64,000 nucleotides of DNA, from positions 29,026,420 through 29,090,419 of the forward strand of contig NC_052477.1 of assembly GCF_009730915.1 (NCBI RefSeq), in the 5' to 3' direction. The notes under the pieces are model-generated. The model made no database searches, had not been told where the DNA came from, and was given only the letters and a program-made list of their open reading frames with translations. The translations under genes were made by a program, and so were the position numbers. Positions within the stretch are counted from its first letter, which is position 1. Each line of letters begins with the position of its first letter. This DNA is from Dioscorea cayenensis subsp. rotundata. Taxonomy: Eukaryota > Streptophyta > Magnoliopsida > Dioscoreales > Dioscoreaceae. Of this stretch, positions 5,001 through 60,620 are shown in pieces.

Positions 5001-8000
5001 ATTGGAACAAATAGACACAGCAACAAGCGAGATAGACCTAAAAGCATAAGATACTTTGGGTCTCTGTTTATGCTGCCAAATATCCAAGTTCCTATATTTC
5101 TCATAAGATGCGCCCAAATTTTATCTTGCTGAGATAAGCTAACACATGTTCACCCCTCACAGCATTCTTAACGTCCCTCAAATCCCTAACTTGAAAGCCG
5201 TCCTCAGCATGCTTTTTAATTGCTCAAATTAGTACAGATGAACCTCTGAACTAGTTTAGAAATGTTGTTGAGGACAAGTTTCCAAGTATTAAGCCAATTA
5301 CAAGGGAGAACTAGAAGAACAGCGTTAGCAAGCACAATCCAACCATATATCTAAGAATTGAGGCTTTCAACTGGCTAACTTATGCTCCACTTTGATTTTG
5401 GTGTAGTTTAATTAATTATTCATTCTTGATATCATCCCACTCATTCTGCTTGCTTGGAATTGTTTTTGTATAAGTAATGGCTTTACCACATATTCTTATC
5501 TTATGTTTTTGTCAGAATTTTGGAAAGGAAAATAACAAGGATCTGAATGAGACACTAGTTGGTTCCAAGATCAAAGTATGGTGGCCAGAGGACAAGTTGT
5601 AAGGATTTCTAATCTGAATCTGCTTTTGGATATAGCGATCTTGATTAGAAAAAAAATGATTCTCAAAGGTGTAAATTTATTCAAATATGAACATACAATT
5701 TTGCATGTTTTCAGAATTAAATTGGTTCTCTATAATTCCATTCTGAGGAAAAAAATTGTGTATGAATTTATTTGCTTGACGTTTACATGATTGTCTTTTG
5801 GTGTTGTGTTATTTTATTATGCTCTCAATAGGATCCATGTACCCTTCTTGATTAGAAAAAATGGTTCTCAAAGGTGTAAGTTTATTCAAATATGAACATA
5901 CAATTTTGCATGTTTTCAGAATTAAATTGGTTCTCTATAATTCCATTCTGAGGAAAAAATTGTGTATGAATTTATTTGCTTGACGTTTACATGATTGTCT
6001 TTTGGTGTTCTGTTATTTTATCATGCTCTCAATAGGATCCATGTACCCTTCTTTAGTTGTGTGAGAACTTGCCTCTGATATAATTTCCTTGTCTGTTTTT
6101 CTGTTTGCTTTTGCTTTATGTCTTATTCTATATTACCCTGTGATAGTACCATCTTTGTGAAATAAGACTGATTGTTTTCTATGCTCTGTATGCAGGCACA
6201 AGCAGGTTGAAACCACTGATTTTTTTCACTGATATTTGTGTATTCTTCATTATCAAACCTTTTTGTAGGAATTTTTTTAGACATATCTATCTACTTTAAA
6301 CATAATCAGATATGGTTTTTGGATTTGTATGCTAAGTTCAGCCTGATTGATTACTAAGCCGTGCTCTTAGTTTTGACTCAGGCTACATACGATTCCTGCT
6401 ATATGCAATATTTTTTCATCTAGAATTTTATTTTATTACTTTTTAAAACTTCTCAGTGAATCTATATAGTTCTAATTGTTTGATGGCATCGAGGAGTGTG
6501 CACTTCTATTATATTTTTTGTGTTTGAAAATGCACAAGGGTGGTGTAAATCGAGCTTAATATAATGTTTCTTTATCAGCATCAAGTAGTGCAAATTGAGT
6601 TGGTCAAATAGAGTCTTTGAAAGCTTATTGCTGTATTCCTTATTGCAGATTTTATCATGGTATTGTTGAAGCTTTTGAGCCAACCACAAAGAGGCATAAA
6701 GTACGAAGTTTCAGATTTTGCAAATCGTTCTTCATTTGTTAGTGCTTCTTTTATTGATAAAGTAGTATAATGGAGTTGATAATTTAGAGGTATTTCAGTC
6801 TTTTCATTTATTAAACCTTTTATACTAAACACCAAACAAGTGATGAAGACAGAAATATCCAACTTATTAACATTATAATGCTCTTATAATATGTTATTCT
6901 TCAGTGTGATTCTGGAATGGTGACATGCTCATTGTTTTGGTGATATATGCTTCATTAGTTATTTAATGTTTGTTTTCTACAGGTTGTATACTCAGACGGT
7001 GATGTTGAAATATTGCTACTAAAGAATGAGCGATATGAACTAATTGAAGAGGTGGGCAATGGAAACTCTTCACTTTTCTGTGCTTTTTAGCTGTCATGTG
7101 CACTATACTACCTGTCAAATCACAATATATTTTCGCAGTCAATAAGAATTCTGTGCTATGACTGAAATCAACTATAACATTTGGATTATGTCCTTAGAAA
7201 ATATGTGATGCTACTTTGGACAACAATTGAATGAGGAAATAATATTTTTTTTAACTCTTTGATATGAAGATAACTTCATTTATTAAAATATAATTGATCA
7301 AAGACAACATTTGATTGGAGCCGAAGTCATCAAGAAAAATTTGATTTGGAGATAATTCAATTATTGGAATGATGAAGATTTTTGAAATCTGGTGACAGCT
7401 TGATTATAATTTTTGTTATCATTTTGTATTCATGAAACAGGATGACTACATCAGTTTCTATCTTTTATTTTCCTATTAAATTCAATTGTAGTGTTAAAAT
7501 TGTAATTATCTATGTTTTATTTGTTAATTTGGATATTATTTATGTAATTTTGTTCTTCTTAAAAGTGTCTTGCTTATTTATTCTTCTACCAGGGGCAAGA
7601 TGAACTTACTCGAAGTCCTAATGGACCTTCAAAAGGGTAAGTGTTCCATATGATTGATCATTGTGTATTTTCTTGCTGAATTCTATTAAATTTATTTCAA
7701 GATAATCAATATCCTATTCTAGTACATTTCTTTTTTAACCCTGCTTTCTTTCACGTATCTTTTTATTATGACCGTCTCCTAGAAAAAAGAATGCCGGATA
7801 GTTGTGCCAAATTTTTTTTTTTTTGGTTACTTTCAAACCGTTGTTGTTGTTGTTGTTAATATACTCAAAGGCTATTTTATGTTTCTTGTACATTTGGAGT
7901 TTATTTTTGTCCAGTAATTAGTTCTTTCACGTAGCTACAAAAGCTTTCTTATATCATATTTCTCCAATTGCCATTAAAACAGATGGTGAGGTAAGAAAGC

Positions 8001-27382: not shown

Positions 27383-27447
27383 AGTGATTGGTATTTTTAA
27401 TTAATTGTATTTTATTCATTTTAAAAACATTGATGCGGACTATGATG

Positions 27448-27455
27448 CTCAGATA
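27448..27455. repeat. 8-bp target site duplication, left copy (CTCAGATA)
   Basis: CTCAGATA directly precedes the left inverted repeat and is repeated at 30999-31006 directly after the right one. An 8-11 bp duplication is expected of Mutator-like elements; a ninth position differs (G/A). Confidence 0.75.
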
Positions 27456-27690
27456 GGCTTTTTTTTTTAAAATATTACAAAAAAAAATATTTATTAAATT
27501 ACGCATGTTTGGGATTATTTACCAAAATACGCACGTTGGTGGAAAACGGTAAACCTTTCCCTGTTTTCAGTTTTTTTTTTAATTTTTTTTATTTTAAAAT
27601 ATAGAAAACGGGAGAGTTTCTCCCGTTTTCATTTTTTTTAATTAAAAATAAAAAAAATGAAAACGGGAGAGTAACACCCGTTTTGTTTTT
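27456..27690 (+). repeat. MULE left terminal inverted repeat
   Basis: Starts GGCTTTTTTT and pairs with the complement of the right end. Contains the near-perfect palindrome GAAAACGGGAGAGTTTCTCC... at about 27605 and a second, GAAAACGGGAGAGTAACACC..., at about 27659, so the single strand can fold into two adjacent hairpins. Confidence 0.75.
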
Positions 27691-27835
27691 TTTAAACTCT
27701 AGTGTTGGCTGTTAGGGTTTTAATAAGAATGCTTTTTATATGATTAATTTTTTAATTAAAAAATAATTGTTGATATATATATTAACCTTTTATTTAAAAA
27801 AAAACTATGAATCTCGAAAAATATTAGAAATAAAA

Positions 27836-28826
27836 CGGTCAAAGTTGCATCGGTAATTAATTAATACAAAATAGGATGGTTAAATATACAACGGTAAGTA
27901 GTTAGTACAAAGTAGGACGGTCAAACTGACACCGTTAGTAATTAGCACAAAGTAGGACTGTCAAACCTGCACCGGTCAGTACTTAGCTCAAAGTAGGTTG
28001 GTTAAACCTGCGCCGGTTAGTAATTGGTGCAAAGTAGTTTGGTCAAACTTGTATCGGTGATTAATTAGGACAAAGTAGGACGGTCAAACCTGCACATGTC
28101 AGTGATTAGCACAAAGTACATTGGTCAAACTTCCACGAGTCGATGAGTGAGTTCAAAGTAAGTTGGTCAAACCCTACACCGATCGAATTAGCACAAAGTA
28201 GGGACGATCAAACCCTGCACTCGCTTAGCACTGCAAGTACCGGTCAAACTCGCACCACTCGATGATTGGGACAAAGCGAGACGATCAAACTCGCACTGGT
28301 CGACACGAGTATGCCGGTCAAACCTGCACCACTTAGTGATTGGGACAAAGCGAGACGGTCGAAACCTGCACTCGGGCCAAGACAAAGTACGCCGGTCGAA
28401 ACTCGCACCACTCGATGATTGGGACAAAGCGGGATAGTCAAACCTGCACCCGATCGAGACGCAGTACACCGGCCAAACCCTACACCACTCGATGATTAGG
28501 ACAAAGTATGGCGATCGAAACCTGCACTGGTCATCACAAAGTAGCCGGTCGAAACCTCGCACCACTCGATGATTGAGACAAAGCGATGCGATCGAACTCG
28601 CACTCGGCCAAGACGAAGTACGGCGGTCAAACCTGCACCACTCAGTGATTGGGACAAAGCGGGGACGATCAAACTCGCACCGGTCAAGCATAAAAGTACA
28701 CCTGGGTCAAACTCGCACCACTCGAGTGATTAGGACAAAAGTATGACGATCAAACTCGCACTCGCTTAGTACTTAGCACAAAGTAGGTTGGTCAAACCTA
28801 AACCAATCAGTAATTAGGACGGTCAA
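27836..28826. repeat. ~41-bp minisatellite array inside the MULE
   Basis: About 24 units of roughly 41 bp, with core AAAGTAGGACGGTCAAACC followed by TGCACCGGTCAGTAATTAG. Outer units are AT-richer. The central block (about 28190-28770) is GC-richer and more irregular, with CTCGCAC replacing CCTGCAC and ACTCGATGATT replacing ACTCAGTGATT in many units. Open frames on the minus strand here are a by-product of the repeat. The array lies just upstream of the element's gene promoter. Confidence 0.85.
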
Positions 28827-28867
28827 ACCTGCAATGTTCATAAATGAAATTTTCAAAATTTGAGCTC

Positions 28868-28939
28868 TTTATATAAACCAACATTAGTAGCCCATTTTCA
28901 CTCTTGCACACTATTTACTCACTCACTCACTCACTCACC
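28868..28939 (+). promoter_or_regulatory. core promoter and leader of the MULE PB1 gene
   Basis: TTTATATAAACC at 28869-28880 is a good TATA box about 85-95 bp before the ATG at 28966. A (CTCA)n tract at 28918-28939 forms the leader. The spacing suits a transcribed plant gene, but transcription itself cannot be seen. Confidence 0.55.
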
Positions 28940-28965
28940 CATACTTCTTTTTCTTATCTTCAACA

Positions 28966-29289
28966 ATGGCAGAGACTTCACTTGTATTGATTTACTACAA
29001 TGGTTCAATCATTGCTAGTGAAGACACAATTATATTTTCGTCGGAGGATCAATCATATTTTTATGTCGAAGACGACATCTCTTACGAAAATTTAAAGAGA
29101 TCCATTGAAGAAAGCATTGAGACTGCTGACAACCAAGTAGTTTCATATATCAAATACCGGCTCCCAATTTCTTCAGGACCCGGTAAGATTTGCTATCAGT
29201 CATTCAAATTGCGTAATGACCGAGATGTTCGGATGATGTTCGACTGCCACAAAAGAAATCCAGATATTGGCATTATTCAAATTGCGTAA
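28966..29289 (+). CDS. MuDR N-terminal PB1-like domain protein, stand-alone (107 aa)
   Basis: The ORF is intact from ATG to TAA. It begins MAETSLVLIYYNGSI and continues with a hydrophobic/acidic pattern (YFYVEDDISYENLKRSIEE) and a KLRNDRDVRMMFDCH block. This order (YY-G-I start, central LKR helix, C-terminal D-DVR-MF--H) is that of the PB1-like domain at the N-terminus of plant MuDR transposases. The zinc-finger and DDE catalytic parts that normally follow are absent; the frame ends right after the domain and AT-rich repeats follow. It may be a truncated transposase remnant or a domain kept on its own. Assignment is by pattern from memory, not alignment. Confidence 0.65.
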   Translation: MAETSLVLIYYNGSIIASEDTIIFSSEDQSYFYVEDDISYENLKRSIEESIETADNQVVSYIKYRLPISSGPGKICYQSFKLRNDRDVRMMFDCHKRNPDIGIIQIA

Positions 29290-29419
29290 TCCAGATATTA
29301 AATGGAAAAATAAAATAGGTTGACTTGAAAAAATATAAGACACGGAAAAATCATAAATCCGAACATATGCCATCGAAAAATTAAATATAATTGAAGAGTA
29401 AACCATAAACATTGGTGTG

Positions 29420-30350
29420 TTAATAATATACTAGGTTATCTAATTAAACATGCTTCAGCAATAATATAACAATTATTAATATAATAAAAAATTAACCTAA
29501 TAATATACTAGGTTATCTAAAATAATGACTTAATACAATTATTGATAAAAAAGCCTAATAATATATTAGGTTATCTAAATAAATATGCTTCAAGGTTAAT
29601 ATAACAATTATTAATACAATAATTAATTATGATATAATAAAATTATTCATAAAACCTAATGACATAATACAATTATTAATAATAAAAAAAATTACCTAAA
29701 AATATAGTGGGTTATCTAATTAAACATGATTGGGGTGCTAATAACATAATTATTAATACGATTAATAATTATGATATAATACAATTATTAATATAAAATA
29801 ATGACTTAATACAATTATTAATAAAAAATAACCAAATAATATACTAAATTATCTAAATAAACATTCTTCGAGGTTAATATGACAATCATTAATACAATAA
29901 TTAATTATGACATAATAAAATTATTCATAAAACCTAATGACATAATATGAATATTAATAATAATAAATTACCCTATAAATATAGTGGGTTATCTAATTAA
30001 ACATGATTGAGGTGCTAATAAGATAATTATTAATACGATTAATATTATGATATAATACAATCATTAATATATAATAATGATTTAATACAAGTATTAATAA
30101 AAAATAACCAAATAATATACTAGGTTATCTAAGTAAACATGCTTCGAGGTTAACAATTATTAATACAATAATTAATTATGACATAATACAATTATTAATA
30201 AAAAAATTATCTTAAAAATATAGTGTGTTATCTAATTAAACATGCTTCGGCCGCTAATAAGATAATTATTAATACGATTAATAATTATGACATAAAAAGT
30301 TATTATGTGAAACTAATGTCTTAATATAATTATTAATAAATAATTAATTT
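29420..30350. repeat. ~275-bp AT-rich tandem array inside the MULE
   Basis: Landmark GGTTATCTAA(A/G)TAAA followed by a GCTTC-AGGTTAA block occurs near 29570, 29848 and 30122. A second landmark, TTATCTAATTAAACATG, occurs near 29712, 29990 and 30228. Both indicate a composite unit of about 275 bp in roughly 3.3 copies, itself built of two related halves. No coding content. Confidence 0.8.
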
Positions 30351-30724
30351 CAAAGTTATCTAAGTATACAAAATATTACCCTTTTCCGACAAAATAGATG
30401 AAATGTGATCACTATGTAATCTTAAGAACGCCATCGAAAATTATCAACAGAAATCCCGTACACGTGTAAATAGAAAACACCCACACAATTAGAACTTGAA
30501 GAGAAAATGAGAATGGAGGGGGAGATAGTATGAAGTGGGAAGTGGGTATTATATAAAAAAATAATAATAATAAAATAATTCAACGGATATATTTATATCC
30601 GTTACTAAAGGCTAATATAGTTGGTGTTCTTGTTTTTGCTTTTCAATAAAAACATTTGTGAAAAAACTAAGGAATAAGAATATTTAAAAAGTTAACACCA
30701 ACCAACACCAACCAAGGACAAGGA

Positions 30725-30998
30725 AACGAGAGTTACTCTCCCATTTTCATTTTTTTTATTAAAAAAATTTTAAAAAAATTAAAAATGGGAGAGTTTCTCC
30801 CGTTTTCATAATTTTTTAATTAAAAAAAATGAGAACAGGAGAAACTCTCCCATTTTCTATATTTAAAAAAAAAAAAAAGAGCTGAAAACGGAGAAAGGTT
30901 TACCGTTTTTCACCAACTTGCGTATTTTGGTAAATAATCCCAAACATGCTTAATTTAGTAAAAAAAATTTTTTAATATTTTTTTTTAAAAAAAAGCAA
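30725..30998 (-). repeat. MULE right terminal inverted repeat
   Basis: Complement of the left end. It contains GGTTTACCGTTTTTC and TTTGGTAAATAATCCC, with at least three GGGAGA/TCTCCC palindromic blocks between 30724 and 30860. It carries one more palindromic block than the left end, so the ends have diverged by internal duplication. Confidence 0.75.
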
Positions 30999-31006
30999 CT
31001 CAGATA
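30999..31006. repeat. 8-bp target site duplication, right copy (CTCAGATA)
   Basis: Identical to 27448-27455. It marks the end of the MULE, 177 bp before the EXO5 start codon. Confidence 0.75.
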
Positions 31007-31183: not shown

Positions 31184-33833
31184 ATGAACACCACTCCCTC
31201 CACCTCCACCTCCACCTCCACCTCCACCTCCACCTTCAATGGCGTTCCAATCCAAGTCCCACTAGAGATCATCACCGAAGAAGAGATGGCTTTCCTCGAA
31301 GCCGCCCTCTCCTCTGCTCTCCCTCTCTTTCCTCCTCGCTGCTCCTCCCCCTCCTCCCTTTTCCGCGTCGCCGCCATCGCTTCCCTCCCCTCCTCTCCCA
31401 AATCCCAATCTCAACCTCTCCGCTCTCCGGACATCGAAGACTCCACACCTCCGGCGCCGGTTGGCTCTCTCCTCCACCGCTTCCGCTCCCGAAGAGCCCT
31501 CGCCGTCACGGACATCACCGGCTCGGTATGCCGCCTTTCCTATTTTTGCAAAGCTATCGCCTTGATTTATCTGAAGTTCTGAATTTTTTATTTAAGAACA
31601 GGAGTGGTGCGAGAAACAGGTGGAGTTCGGTCTCCTCCATGGCCGACCAAAGAGGACTGCAGCCATGGAAGCTGGATCCATTCGCCATGCTGAACTAGAA
31701 GAAGAGGTTGTATCTCATTCATCTTCTTCTTATTTATCCTCTGTATTAACAATTTAATAATTTACACTACACAATCAGGTTGTAGAGAAGGTAGAGATTC
31801 AAATCAAGTCTATTGAAGAATCATGGGCTCTAAAATTCATGAATTTTATGGTCGGCGCTAACCAATTACTGTTTGAAGGTCTAACTCGTGAGCTTCCAGT
31901 GTGTGTATCTTTCCTTTTGCTTATTGTCTGTGCATCCATTTATGCTTCTTTATCTATTCATTTTACTGTTATTAGCAACAATGTTAGTTATGTTGTGGTA
32001 CATTGCTCTCGAAGTTTGATTTATTTTATTGGTTGTGTTATGTTGATGCTTATCTAGTAATTCATGGTCGAATTTCTTTGTGACAATTACTGTCTGAAGG
32101 TCTAACTTGTGAGCTTCCAGTGTATGTCTTTCCTTTTGCTTATTATGTGTGCATCCATTTACGCTTCCATATCTATTCATTTTACTGTTTTAGCGACAAT
32201 ATTAGTTATGCTGTGGTACATTGCTCTTAAAGTTTGATTTATTTTATCGGTTGTGTTATGTTGATGCTTTTATCGAGTAATTCATGGTTGAATTTCTTCG
32301 TGGCAATTACCGTTTGAAGGTCTAAGCTTCCAGCATATGCATCTTTTCTTTTGCTTATTATCTGTGCATCTATTCACGTTTCTATATCTATTCATTTTAC
32401 TTTTTTTAGCAACAATGCTAGTTATGTTGTGGTACATGGCTCTCAAATTTTGATTTATTTTGTTGGTTGTGTTATGTTGATGCTTATCAAGTAATTCATG
32501 GTTAAATTTCTTTGTGGCAACTGCATACCATTGTAACATCAGTTTTTGTTACCTGATTAGTTGGAATAATGTGATATCAGTATAGGAGTTGTGGAAGATA
32601 CTTGGATGATTGGTGTCATTGATGAACTTCAAATGCCTGTTGGCGAGAGTAGCCTTAATCCTTGTCTAGTTGATACGAAAACTCGCTATAGAGCAACCAT
32701 TCCTTCAGAAGCTCAAAAGAGAAATGCAAGGTACATATCACTGATAGTTTGTTGTATGATGCACCTCTGATGATTGTATTAGAATGTTTGGAATGGATTT
32801 ATACTGAAATTGAGAAAAAAAAAATTCTTTCATTTGCAGGCTCCAGTTGATGTGCTATAAGTATTTATGGGACAATTTAGTTGTGAATGACTTTCCCACT
32901 GGGCATTTCTTTGACCATTTTGCTTTGAATCCTCAATATGTTCTATCTGAAGATATCAGACAATATAGTTCTTCATTAGGCTTTGAGGCAAAGGTGAATT
33001 ATTCTTTTTTGAATCTAGTTATTTCCAATTGAAGATATACACATCTGAATTACTTGTTAAACAGTCACAAGATTTTTAAATAATTTTTATGTTGGCAGCA
33101 AGGATAAGTCTCTTGAATTAAGATTTTCTTTTTTAAAATGTTTTCGTCTGATGTCTTCAAGCTGAATTGTCATACTGCCACTTCTAATTGAATCCAATTA
33201 CTTAATCTAGTCAAGTTTCATAACTTCCATACTGCCACTTCTAATTAAATGATTTGTTTATTTTTAATGTTAATATTTATATCCCTAGAACATGATTGAC
33301 GGATTCCGATTTCAAATTACTCAGAGCAATTAGTACTTGTTCTCTGTGTTTCACATGTGATGTATGAAATAAATTCTCAAAACAAATCCTCAATAATATC
33401 TCTATGTATGTGAACACCTTAATAGACATGCTGTATTCTGGCCACAGACATTTGAAGAGGTGGTATCATATTTCAGAAATACTTGTTCCATGCTACCTCC
33501 CTCTGATGAGCAACTGCTCTTGAGGTATGCATTGATGATTCAGATTAATTCATTCTTAAGTAACCAAAAGCAAATTATTGGTGTAAGACACTGAATTCAT
33601 ATTGCTCTTCTCTATGCAGATACGAGTTGCAATCAGATCATTCAATTTTAGAGGAATATAAGTTTTCTTTTGATGCTAATTGGTTCAAGAATGAAATCCA
33701 AAAGCGCCTTGAATTCTGGCGAGGCGAGCGAGAAGCCGAATATGTCTCTGATGCTGAGCGGTGGAAATGCCGATTCTGTAAATTTTCTGCTTCATGCCCT
33801 GTAACACTTGCATCCAGCAACAAAGCAGAATGA
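31184..33833 (+). CDS. EXO5: exonuclease V (EXO5/DEM1 family), complete
   Basis: EXO5 is a single-strand DNA exonuclease with an Fe-S cluster, acting in genome maintenance in nucleus and organelles. Seven exons in phase: 31184-31525, 31602-31706, 31779-31900, 32581-32730, 32840-32993, 33448-33524, 33620-33833; 387 aa. PD-(D/E)XK nuclease motifs are visible: RHAELEEE, GVIDEL with the metal Asp, LVDTKTR with the catalytic Asp/Lys region, and NARLQLMCYK. Four cluster cysteines are present: one in EWCEKQ (exon 2) and CRFCKFSASC at the C-terminus (CX2CX5C). The N-terminus has a hexanucleotide-encoded Ser-Thr run (31200-31232) and is Ser/Pro/Arg-rich, compatible with a plastid transit peptide (inference). 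The start is the first in-frame ATG. A MULE ends 178 bp upstream, so the promoter is partly displaced. Confidence 0.95.
31861..32520. repeat. 221-bp tandem triplication copying the EXO5 exon 3 end and donor
   Basis: Copies start near 31861, 32082 and 32303, with a stub near 32517. Each begins CAATTAC-GT-TGAAGGTCTAA and contains the exon-end sequence GAGCTTCCAGTGT (copy 3 is reduced to AGCTTCCAGCATATG). Copy 1 includes the real exon 3 end (31900); copy 2 repeats a usable-looking donor inside the intron. Confidence 0.9.
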
Positions 33834-56964: not shown

Positions 56965-59900
56965 TCAGTACTCGTCGAAGAAGACGCGTCTGCATGTCGA
57001 TGTCAGGAAATAATGCACGTCATGCATGAGCTTTCCACATTTCTCTGCAAAGCTCACTTCCTGTGAGTACAGATGATGTGTAATATAATTAAAGGATGCT
57101 TGATGAAATAGATATATTGAACTGAAGAGTTTGAGGACTTTACCGGCTCAGGATCTCGCTCTGGTTCTTCGCCGATTGGAGCCCAAACCCTCACTTTTCT
57201 GTCATGACCACCAGAAGCAAAGAAAAGAGTATTAGGATATGTCGCGACAACCTGCACACTGCTGGGGCCGGCAACCATCTTGCGCAGCAGCTTGCTATCC
57301 TTCTTCCTCCATACGAAAATGTTCGAACACTCTGATCCAGATACAATGTATTCTTCGCGCTGACCCAAGAAGCAAACGGGCTTGACTGGCAATGTGTTTC
57401 TGTGCCCGCCGTAACCCCGTGGCTGAACAAGGTTCAGCAGATGCTCTTCTGAGACGGTCATCGGGTCTGGGCCGATATCCATGCCTTTGTCGAAGAGGTA
57501 AATTTGTTCACAGTCATAGGAGACGAGTAACTCACTTTTGTTTGAGTATGCCAACCCTGTTATGTGGTTATCAAGGGAGTCCAATAGATGACGCGGGCAG
57601 TAAGTAGTCACAGGTCGATTAATGCAAGTAGAAGCATCCCACTGATACATTCTAATGTCAAAAAGCCGAACGAATTGATCAAATCCTCCGATTGCAAAAC
57701 AGTTACGGTCCATAGGATCTAACACTACACATTTGAGTTGTACTGGCAGGCCAGAGCCGGAGAATGAGATGCAAGAGAAAAGGTTCATAGGAGATGGAGT
57801 CCTCAGATCAAACTGCGAGAGAAGAATTGGCATAACATAGAGTTACATCTAGAAATAAAAATCAAATGGGAGAGGCTACTTGCCCGCTTCACAAAGCCAT
57901 CTTCACCGCAGCTGTAAAATATGCGAGAGCTACCAGGCTCAATGGCAAGTTGGGGGACACTACCTACGTGCCTTCCGAGCACTGTGGTTGTTACCAAGCT
58001 ATCATCTGCAATTTCATGAAGCTTCACCTGCAAAGAGAACGTATATTTTTCTGAACTTTTATGTTTAACATAGCCATATTGTAACAATAGAACTGTTGAA
58101 GCATTTATTGATGTACGAAGAGCTTGTATGCACGGCCAAAATTGTTATATAATGGCAGTGAAATGTTAATGTGCCCTGGCCTAACTCTAGTTTGATATTT
58201 GAGATAAAAGCAAGCTAACCCACATGAATTTAATCATATATAGTGGAAGATGCTAATGACTCTCCATCAAATTGCAGCAAAAACTTCAAGTGTACAAAGT
58301 ATTACCGAGGATAATAGATCACAATAAGCAAAAACTTTTCTTTTTGCTGAATCGGAAGAACAAATACTTACCAGAACAAAGTATTTTCTTCTAAAAAAAA
58401 TAGCATCAATTTTTATCCAAAGAGAGGCGGCGGTCATACATTTTTCTTGGGAAATAAAGAGCAAAGGAACAATTTCATAAAACCAAGATTAAAAGATACC
58501 AGGCCATCGAAGGAGGACGTAAGTATCATGCGATCATTAGTAAATGGTAGAAATTGGGCATCCATAACACTGTCCTGATGACCATGAGGATATGCAAACT
58601 TTTGTTTACCATCCAGCCAATTCCAGATCTTGACATTTGCGTCTCCAGCACCAGATATAAGAAGGCTTCCTGTTGGGTTAAATCGAATAGTATATATCCT
58701 ACTGTCATGACCTTCTAAAGTCTGGTAGCAATCAAGACGCCTAATCAAGGCCTGCTTAGACAATACATGTCAAGTAGGTGCATCAGTCATCATAGCAAAA
58801 TAGTGAGTAAATTTCATTTCAACCACAACTATTTAAGCAGTTTTGCAAATTTCGAGATTAGCCTCCATATATACAAACACATATAAGTGATCCTTAGTCC
58901 TCACTGCTACAAAATCCAGTTCATAAACTTAACCAAATCAATAGATTGCATGCAGAAAACACAAGAAACGACAATATCCGACTGCTACAAAATCCAGTTC
59001 ATAAACTTAACCAAATCAATAGATTGCGTGCAGAAAACACAAGAAACGACAATATCCGACAATCATGGCATCAATAGATCAGACCCAATTAGTTTGATAT
59101 CACTGAAAAAATTATTCATTTCCAAAAAAAGGCCATACAGTTTTAAACCAAAGAAAAAAATTAGTTCAATTCAGAAAAAGGCCATATAAGCTCTTCCTCT
59201 TGGCTACATCTTACAATGAATTATTCAGAGAATCCGACAAACCGACATGATCAGACATGATTAAAAGAAATGCTGGATATACAATGAAAGATACCAGTAA
59301 AGTCCCGAATGTTAAAAGTTATAACCATGTGCGACAATTCGCCACATGTGACATCGATCAAAATCTACATGCTTGTAATGGAAATCTCCACAAGCCTGGC
59401 ATAAAAATGGCTAATGCAGAACCTTCTTTTTTTAAATACAATAAAAAGAAAAACCTCTATCGTAGCTAGTTCATTCATCATAGAAGAATCATTCAACAGG
59501 ATTCACAATAATATTCAAGTCAAGAACCAATTGCATTTTCATATTCATACTAAAACTAGAACAATCAGATTAGGAAAAAGAACACAAAGGATATGATCTA
59601 TTCATAGAACAGAATAAATTCAGCAGTTCATTTCTACCAAAGAATTTAAGCAATGCTACAGGAACAGGGAAAACAAGCCACAGAATATAGCACCACAAAG
59701 TCACATCTTTATTACCATGAAAGCTAACACTCACAAAAATGCTCATCCTAATCTAATCACAAGATACAGTATTAAAACACCTGAATTTCCACTGATCACT
59801 GAAAACATCAACAAAATAAAACCTTGATTCTAAATTTCCACTAATTCCACCTTGAAAAAAACAAGCATTTGATCACTGAAAACATCAACAAAATAACACC

Positions 59901-60620
59901 TCGATTCTAAATTTCCATTAATTCCACCATGAAAAAAAAAACAAGCATTTGATCACTGAAAACATCAACAAAATAACACCTTGATTCTAAATTTCCACTA
60001 ATTCCACCTTGAAAAAGCATTTGATCACTGAAAACATCAACAAAATAACACCTTGATTCTAAATTTCCACTAATTCCACCATGAAAAAAAAAACAAGCAT
60101 TTGATCACTGAAAACATCAACAAAATAACACCTCGATTCTAAATTTCCACTAATTCCACCTTGAAAAAAAAACAAGCATTTGATCACTGAAAACATCAAC
60201 AAAATAACACCTCGATTCTAAATTTCCACTAATTCCACCTTGAAAAAAAAACAAGCATTTGATCACTGAAAACATCAACAAAATAACACCTCGATTCTAA
60301 ATTTCCACTAATTTCCACCTTGAAAAACAAGCATTTGATCACTTAAAACATCAACAAAATAACACCTCGATTCTAAATTTCCACTAATTCCACCTTGAAA
60401 AAAAAACAAGCATTTGATCAATGAAAACATCAACAAAATAACACCTTGATTCTAAATTTTCACTAATTCAACCTTGAAAACCAAATCAAAGCAAGAACAA
60501 TAACTCAAACATTGTTAAACAAAATTAAGACATCAAAAAATCAAATAAGAGCGAGAGATTAGAACATCAATAGACCTCAGAGGAGGTGAAGCCCCTCTCA
60601 AAGAGCAAGGGGGAAGACAT
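56965..60620 (-). CDS. DCAF8-like WD40 protein (DDB1-CUL4 substrate receptor type)
   Basis: DCAF8-type proteins recruit substrates to CUL4-DDB1 ubiquitin ligases. Five exons in phase: 60620-60576, 58751-58500, 58027-57884, 57812-57144, 57060-56965; 401 aa. WD40 repeats are clear: LEGHDSRIYTIRFNPTGSLL with SGAGDANVKIWNW; HGHQDSVMDAQFLP; GRHVGSVPQLAIEPGS with SCGEDGFVKRFDLRT; GGFDQFVRLFDIR; NHITGLAYSNKSELLVSYDC; KPVCFLGQREEYIVSGSEC with NIFVWRKK; and SGGHDRKVRVWAP. Intron 3 (57883-57813) has a GC donor (CGG-GCAAGT) and a normal AG acceptor. The last exon gives a short tail (VHYFLTSTCRRVFFDEY) in place of the longer acidic C-terminus I expect in plant homologues, so the 3' end may be altered or modelled wrongly. 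Confidence 0.88.
58904..59059. repeat. 78-bp direct duplication in DCAF8 intron 1
   Basis: CTGCTACAAAATCCAGTTC at 58904 recurs at 58982. The two 78-bp copies differ visibly at one base (GCATGC versus GCGTGC), so the duplication is very young. Confidence 0.95.
59785..60480. repeat. ~80-bp minisatellite, nine copies, in DCAF8 intron 1
   Basis: TGATCACTGAAAACATCAAC occurs (with small changes) near 59792, 59870, 59950, 60020, 60100, 60181, 60261, 60340 and 60417. Each unit continues AAAATAACACC-CGATTCTAA and ATTTCCACTAATTCCACC, then a variable A run. Period 70-81 bp, driven mostly by A-run length. It ends about 95 bp inside the intron from exon 1. Confidence 0.95.

Follow-up and report, generated by a model that had tools for sequence, protein, structure and literature searches.

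MULEs are described as having target-site duplications of 9-11 bp and long terminal inverted repeats, typically of 100-500 bp (PMC3310237). In maize, Ds-del elements are reported to be simple internal deletions of Ac, and Ds2 to carry filler sequence (PMC3260210). MUSTANG-B (MUGB) genes are described as possessing an N-terminal PB1 exon (PMC3435246). In Arabidopsis VANDAL21, arrays precede VANA21 and occupy introns of both VANB21 and VANC21, VANC21 binds a motif repeated in these arrays, and the domain DUF1985 is shown in VANC (PMC5735166); the VANDAL21 system is likewise treated in PMC10398659. Finally, plant mobile domains (PMDs) fused to MULE transposases are reported from grasses and Amborella, together with the speculation that captured PMDs serve transposable elements in anti-silencing (PMC5418596). 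Here we compare with these systems an element found in a 64,000-nucleotide stretch of the genome of Dioscorea cayenensis subsp. rotundata (hereafter the window), which almost certainly belongs to an ~8-kb two-gene MULE family as a non-autonomous copy with an internal deletion.

The insertion occupies positions 27456-30997 of the window, the border being placed from the sequence together with the GGC...GCC ends and the 9-bp rule of its relatives. It is flanked by GCTCAGATA on the left (27447-27455) and by ACTCAGATA on the right (30998-31006), which differ at one position. This pair was called by eye, a script having returned just poly-T matches for the window, and is read as 9 bp because relatives show exact 9-bp duplications, commonly next to GGC...GCC termini. 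Among 25 other elements, each scanned over 41 x 41 end positions with chance matches possible in AT-rich sequence, 12 have exact 9-bp duplications at GG..CC ends, five have exact duplications with shifted ends, two have duplications with a mismatch and six have no credible duplication or usable end pair. The 5' terminal inverted repeat (27456-27696, forward strand) contains internal hairpins of the GGGAGAGTTTCTCCC type, and the 3' repeat (30769-30997, reverse strand) has a final base unlike that of the usual GCC; both were delimited from inverted repeats and an end-to-end match. At ~240 bp, the two ends are imperfect copies of each other (81% identity across 242 columns), and an inverted-repeat search found them rich in hairpins. 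The 9-bp duplication with one mismatch, the ~240-bp inverted ends and the MULE transposase carried by a full-length relative (L011) identify the insertion as a MULE. The first-pass annotation had already recognised a MULE with hairpin-rich inverted ends of ~230-260 bp, which agrees with these results. It had also seen the target-site duplication, although its length is 9 bp with one mismatch and not 8 bp as then given.

Within the element, array 1 consists of 41-bp units (about 27837-28850, forward strand; TRF and comparison with relatives). It is common to the family and lies directly upstream of the transposase promoter, the TATA box of which, TATATAAACCAA, is found at 28870-28881 (forward strand); the TATA-region sequence TATATAAA is conserved in L011, L016 and L021. 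An ATG-started open frame of 107 codons follows on the same strand (28966-29289). Its codons 1-104 (28966-29277, forward strand) are an N-terminal fragment of transposase, and the fragment corresponds to approximately the first eighth of the family's transposase gene. On the reverse strand lies what we infer to be the remnant of intron 1 of a PMD gene (29295-30380), its acceptor and all later exons having been deleted. This remnant holds array 2, made up of ~138/276-bp units (about 29421-30345, reverse strand; TRF, with full-length copies collinear). The putative first exon of the PMD gene, comprising 18 codons before a GT donor, is found at 30381-30434 (reverse strand) by alignment with 21 other copies. 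Thus the two tandem arrays and the intact 107-codon frame with its own TATA box are present as first annotated; however, the arrays are not a peculiarity of this copy, as both belong to the ~8-kb family.

We searched the 584-Mb genome with the ORF region, obtaining 40 scored matches from 208 first-look candidates. With the window excluded, 37 of 39 matches stop at query base 411, equivalent to window position 29280 and 3 bp beyond the last native base; one of the other two stops at 415 and one, at the place of L010, reaches 421. Copies read at the window's junction point continue into transposase. Possession of only the N-terminal domain, as first annotated, is thus a property of this copy. 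Twenty copies were chosen by ORF similarity and fetched with their surroundings, and L048-L052 were added for their closely spaced ends, these five being a biased sample. Nine of the 20 (L011, L012, L014, L015, L016, L018, L019, L021 and L027) have both ends and no internal deletion >800 bp, spanning about 7.9-8.4 kb. Internal deletions >800 bp are present in eight (L009, L010, L013, L017, L020, L023, L024 and L026), and in L022, L025 and L028 the far end was not found within the fetched stretch. Two of the deleted copies, L009 and L020, have one common deletion junction and unlike target duplications, from which it appears that this non-autonomous derivative was mobilised after the deletion had occurred.

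The ~8-kb layout runs from an inverted end through the 41-bp array, the transposase gene and a convergent PMD gene with array 2 to the second inverted end. On the forward strand of L011, a 640-codon open stretch contains DBD_Tnp_Mut (PF03108, E = 1.6e-10), MULE (PF10551, E = 3.1e-15) and Transposase_mut (PF00872) domains and is followed, after a predicted GT-AG intron, by a stretch with a SWIM domain (PF04434, E = 2.7e-7). The PMD gene occupies 5556-7475 on the reverse strand of the same copy (PF10536, E about 1.9e-58).

The window is collinear with full-length copies as far as transposase codon 104 (29277) and again from 29295, a point within the predicted first intron of the PMD gene. Both flanks therefore align with longer relatives and the middle, ~4.6 kb, is missing. 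At the junction lie 17 bp of filler DNA (29278-29294, forward strand; from the sequence and alignment to full-length copies), which are missing from five full-length copies aligned at this point. The filler matches window positions 29202-29217 and then 29257-29268, 73 and 31 bp upstream, linked via short shared words. It encodes Q-I-A (codons 105-107) followed by a TAA stop (29287-29289). A 37-base junction pattern, searched with up to 3 mismatches, gave a single match genome-wide, and its reversed control gave none. A second deletion is seen in L010, where a 128-codon frame is formed on the transposase N-terminus (L010 positions 2593-2976). Its left breakpoint is ~6 bp beyond that of the window and its right end differs; the L010 junction includes part of the upstream patch from which the window filler also derives, and its pattern has one genome match, with 2 mismatches. 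The near-coincident starts and common template of the two derivatives could hint at a non-chance origin or a shared first step. In retaining its ends and lacking the middle of the transposase gene, the window element is like maize Ds-del and Ds2 as described in PMC3260210. However, those are hAT elements, whereas the window element is a MULE with a 17-bp filler taken from at most 75 bp away.

Interrupted gap repair is a cause of deletions in Mu elements. The ~4.6 kb lost, which begins at transposase codon 105 and ends in intron 1 of the convergent PMD gene, would have disappeared when, following excision or breakage, gap repair was interrupted or the template switched; this is suggested by the filler, whose two matches, located 73 and 31 bp upstream, are linked through short shared words. 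The frame would still be open because few mutations have accumulated at this 5' end of a gene formerly under selection, and the stop three codons on would be a chance gift of the filler. The open 107-codon frame requires no selected function, and the element is compatible with a recent origin, the alternative named in the first-pass annotation. Judging from its sequence, the window copy might still be mobilised in trans, given ends that look complete save for one terminal base. A need of the arrays for mobility is not supported among the elements sampled: exact 9-bp duplications are found both in L051, a 748-bp element in which nearly all of both arrays is absent, and in L048, which has no array 1.

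The first-pass annotation had instead suggested a selected role for the ORF, as a small gene encoding a protein that acts in trans to titrate or recruit transposase, and had proposed dN/dS across copies as a test. The frame is indeed open, with a TATA box and ATG, and in the second derivative, L010, the N-terminal segment likewise remains in an open frame, of 128 codons. However, the window estimate obtained from that test, a mean dN/dS of 0.98 against the other copies, gives no sign of a selected small protein, albeit resting on one copy's few changes and being compatible with weak constraint. The first 104 codons are intact (ATG, in frame and stop-free) in 24 of 40 copies and broken in the other 16; degradation of this kind is what the first-pass annotation had named as contrary evidence, and the outcome speaks against a selected role. 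Private changes also look neutral, 91 being nonsynonymous and 29 synonymous, a ratio of 3.1:1 where the codons themselves predict 2.9-3.75:1; the sole private change of the window is G58V. Pooled pN/pS for the 104-codon segment does fall below 1 (0.68, codon bootstrap 0.47-0.999) in 27 copies, comprising the 24 intact ones, L023 (no ATG) and L035 and L047 (inserted bases dropped from the columns). This value speaks for a selected gene in some measure, and it is most simply explained by weak constraint that the segment experienced within the full transposase; the pattern fits old constraint on the whole transposase with little or none on the fragment. Given a junction that occurs once in the genome, a filler that is the source of the last three codons and stop, the neutral private changes and the dN/dS of 0.98, a selected small gene is very improbable and was rejected. 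Moreover, no interaction domain was recognised in Pfam or PDB sequence searches. The ORF does originate from a MuDR-type transposase N-terminus, as first annotated, but it is not a stand-alone gene, consisting of codons 1-104 and an end supplied by filler.

It is extremely unlikely that an ordinary full-length copy was collapsed into the short element during assembly. Two points would favour a collapse, namely the high repetitiveness of the family and the base errors that the assembly seemingly has in repeats, but a collapse would not obviously make a filler that the five aligned full-length copies lack, and deletion derivatives with other junctions are common. With regard to base errors, 13 copies, L009 not among them, were compared for their private changes at CHG sites. 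These changes were mostly non-deamination rather than deamination changes in L014 (15 v 4), L015 (8 v 1), L016 (10 v 5), L017 (18 v 8) and L020 (6 v 3), and the replacements in L014-L017 and L020 include CAG>CGA and CTG>TCG. They were mostly of the deamination type in L018, L019, L021, L022 and L025, stood at 3 v 2 in L027 and were absent from L011 and L012. CTG/CAG sites read TCG/CGA or gain bases in window positions 27837-28850 and in L014, L015, L016 and L017. In array 1 of the window, CCTGCAC and CTCGCAC occur eight times each, compared with totals of 131 and 39 for the other 20 copies counted over a fixed slice. The TCG/CGA pattern suggests that bases were miscalled at methylated CHG sites, and, as a consequence of such errors, part of the relatives' frame breaks may be artefactual. 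The window element is an ordinary MULE deletion derivative, and the selected-peptide reading is unsupported.

The ORF had also been labelled PB1-like. The window ORF had no Pfam match at E<=10, the other 23 ORF members gave scattered weak matches to unrelated families (best E 0.044), and a PDB sequence search returned four weak matches, none to a PB1 chain. These Pfam and PDB sequence searches lend the PB1 label no support. The parent family resembles MUGB, as described in PMC3435246, in that its transposase has the MuDR-type order of domains and an additional region at the N-terminus. Unlike the MUGB PB1 exon, this region of L011 lies in one open stretch with the core, and a match to the PB1 profile is absent.

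The other gene of the parent family invites comparison with VANDAL21. From the predicted gene structures, array 2 would be intronic, within PMD intron 1, and array 1 would precede the transposase gene. In its commonest form, PMD exon 1 joins in phase to PDRVLRCRH..., and the predicted intron 1 acceptor, TTTCTACAG/CCTGATCGG, is present in five of six full-length copies examined. The frame beyond this acceptor, found with <=3 changes, extends for 17 to 236 codons in 13 copies. Speaking against this exon model, in the alignment with the 21 other copies exon 1 is without its start codon in L050 and without the GT donor in L009, L012, L017 and L052; L010 and L052 differ more broadly, and additional bases occur within the exon or at its end in L011, L014, L048, L049 and the window. 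According to this predicted model, the family resembles VANDAL21, as described in PMC5735166, in having one array upstream of the transposase gene and another in an intron of an accessory gene, which suggests an anti-silencing parallel. The accessory gene is, however, a PMD gene as opposed to VANB/VANC, and two genes were found in the parent family as opposed to three in VANDAL21. Against the analogy, too, the two arrays of the window have no exact motif in common beyond chance, and small elements lacking arrays keep exact duplications. No 8- or 9-mer reaches a count of 3 in both arrays, and their common 6- and 7-mers are no better than in Markov shuffles of array 2, the 7-mer value being matched by 19 of 200 shuffles (window copy, exact words only). 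PMD matches to DUF1985 were all sub-threshold (E 0.014-0.016, in three of six copies).

The MULEs of PMC5418596 also combine MULE transposase and PMD, but in fused form, whereas the PMD of the parent family is separate, convergent and on the other strand. A convergent, unfused PMD in a MULE does not feature in titles or abstract openings among the literature matches listed. Of nine PMD loci taken from this genome, one (L055) is apparently another copy of the window's MULE family, at 91%. The best match of the MULE PMD to the other eight was to L061, with 46% over 179 aa, while L053 and L054 gave no match; the open PMD frame of L061 looks genic. By analogy, the parent MULE could have captured a genic PMD that, like VANC, counters silencing in a sequence-specific manner by acting on the arrays at the transposase promoter and in PMD intron 1, although we consider this unlikely. 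If true, the window copy would be a decoy or beneficiary, holding both arrays and neither gene.

An exonuclease V gene is found directly downstream of the element (31184-33830), with the Exo5 domain within 33564-33830. Some 190 bp separate the 3' end of the element from a possible ATG at 31184, and the ORF at this point has no Pfam match. The element may therefore be located in the exonuclease V promoter region. A further tandem array lies outside the element at 59793-60481, with 79/152-bp units and 92-94% matches.

On its own the window element is routine, its lesson being that when a transposon contains a small open ORF, this can be a transposase that was truncated and then closed by filler. 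The PMD-bearing parent family is mildly interesting, and the layout of a PMD-carrying MULE of this kind would permit testing of the anti-silencing speculation put forward in PMC5418596.
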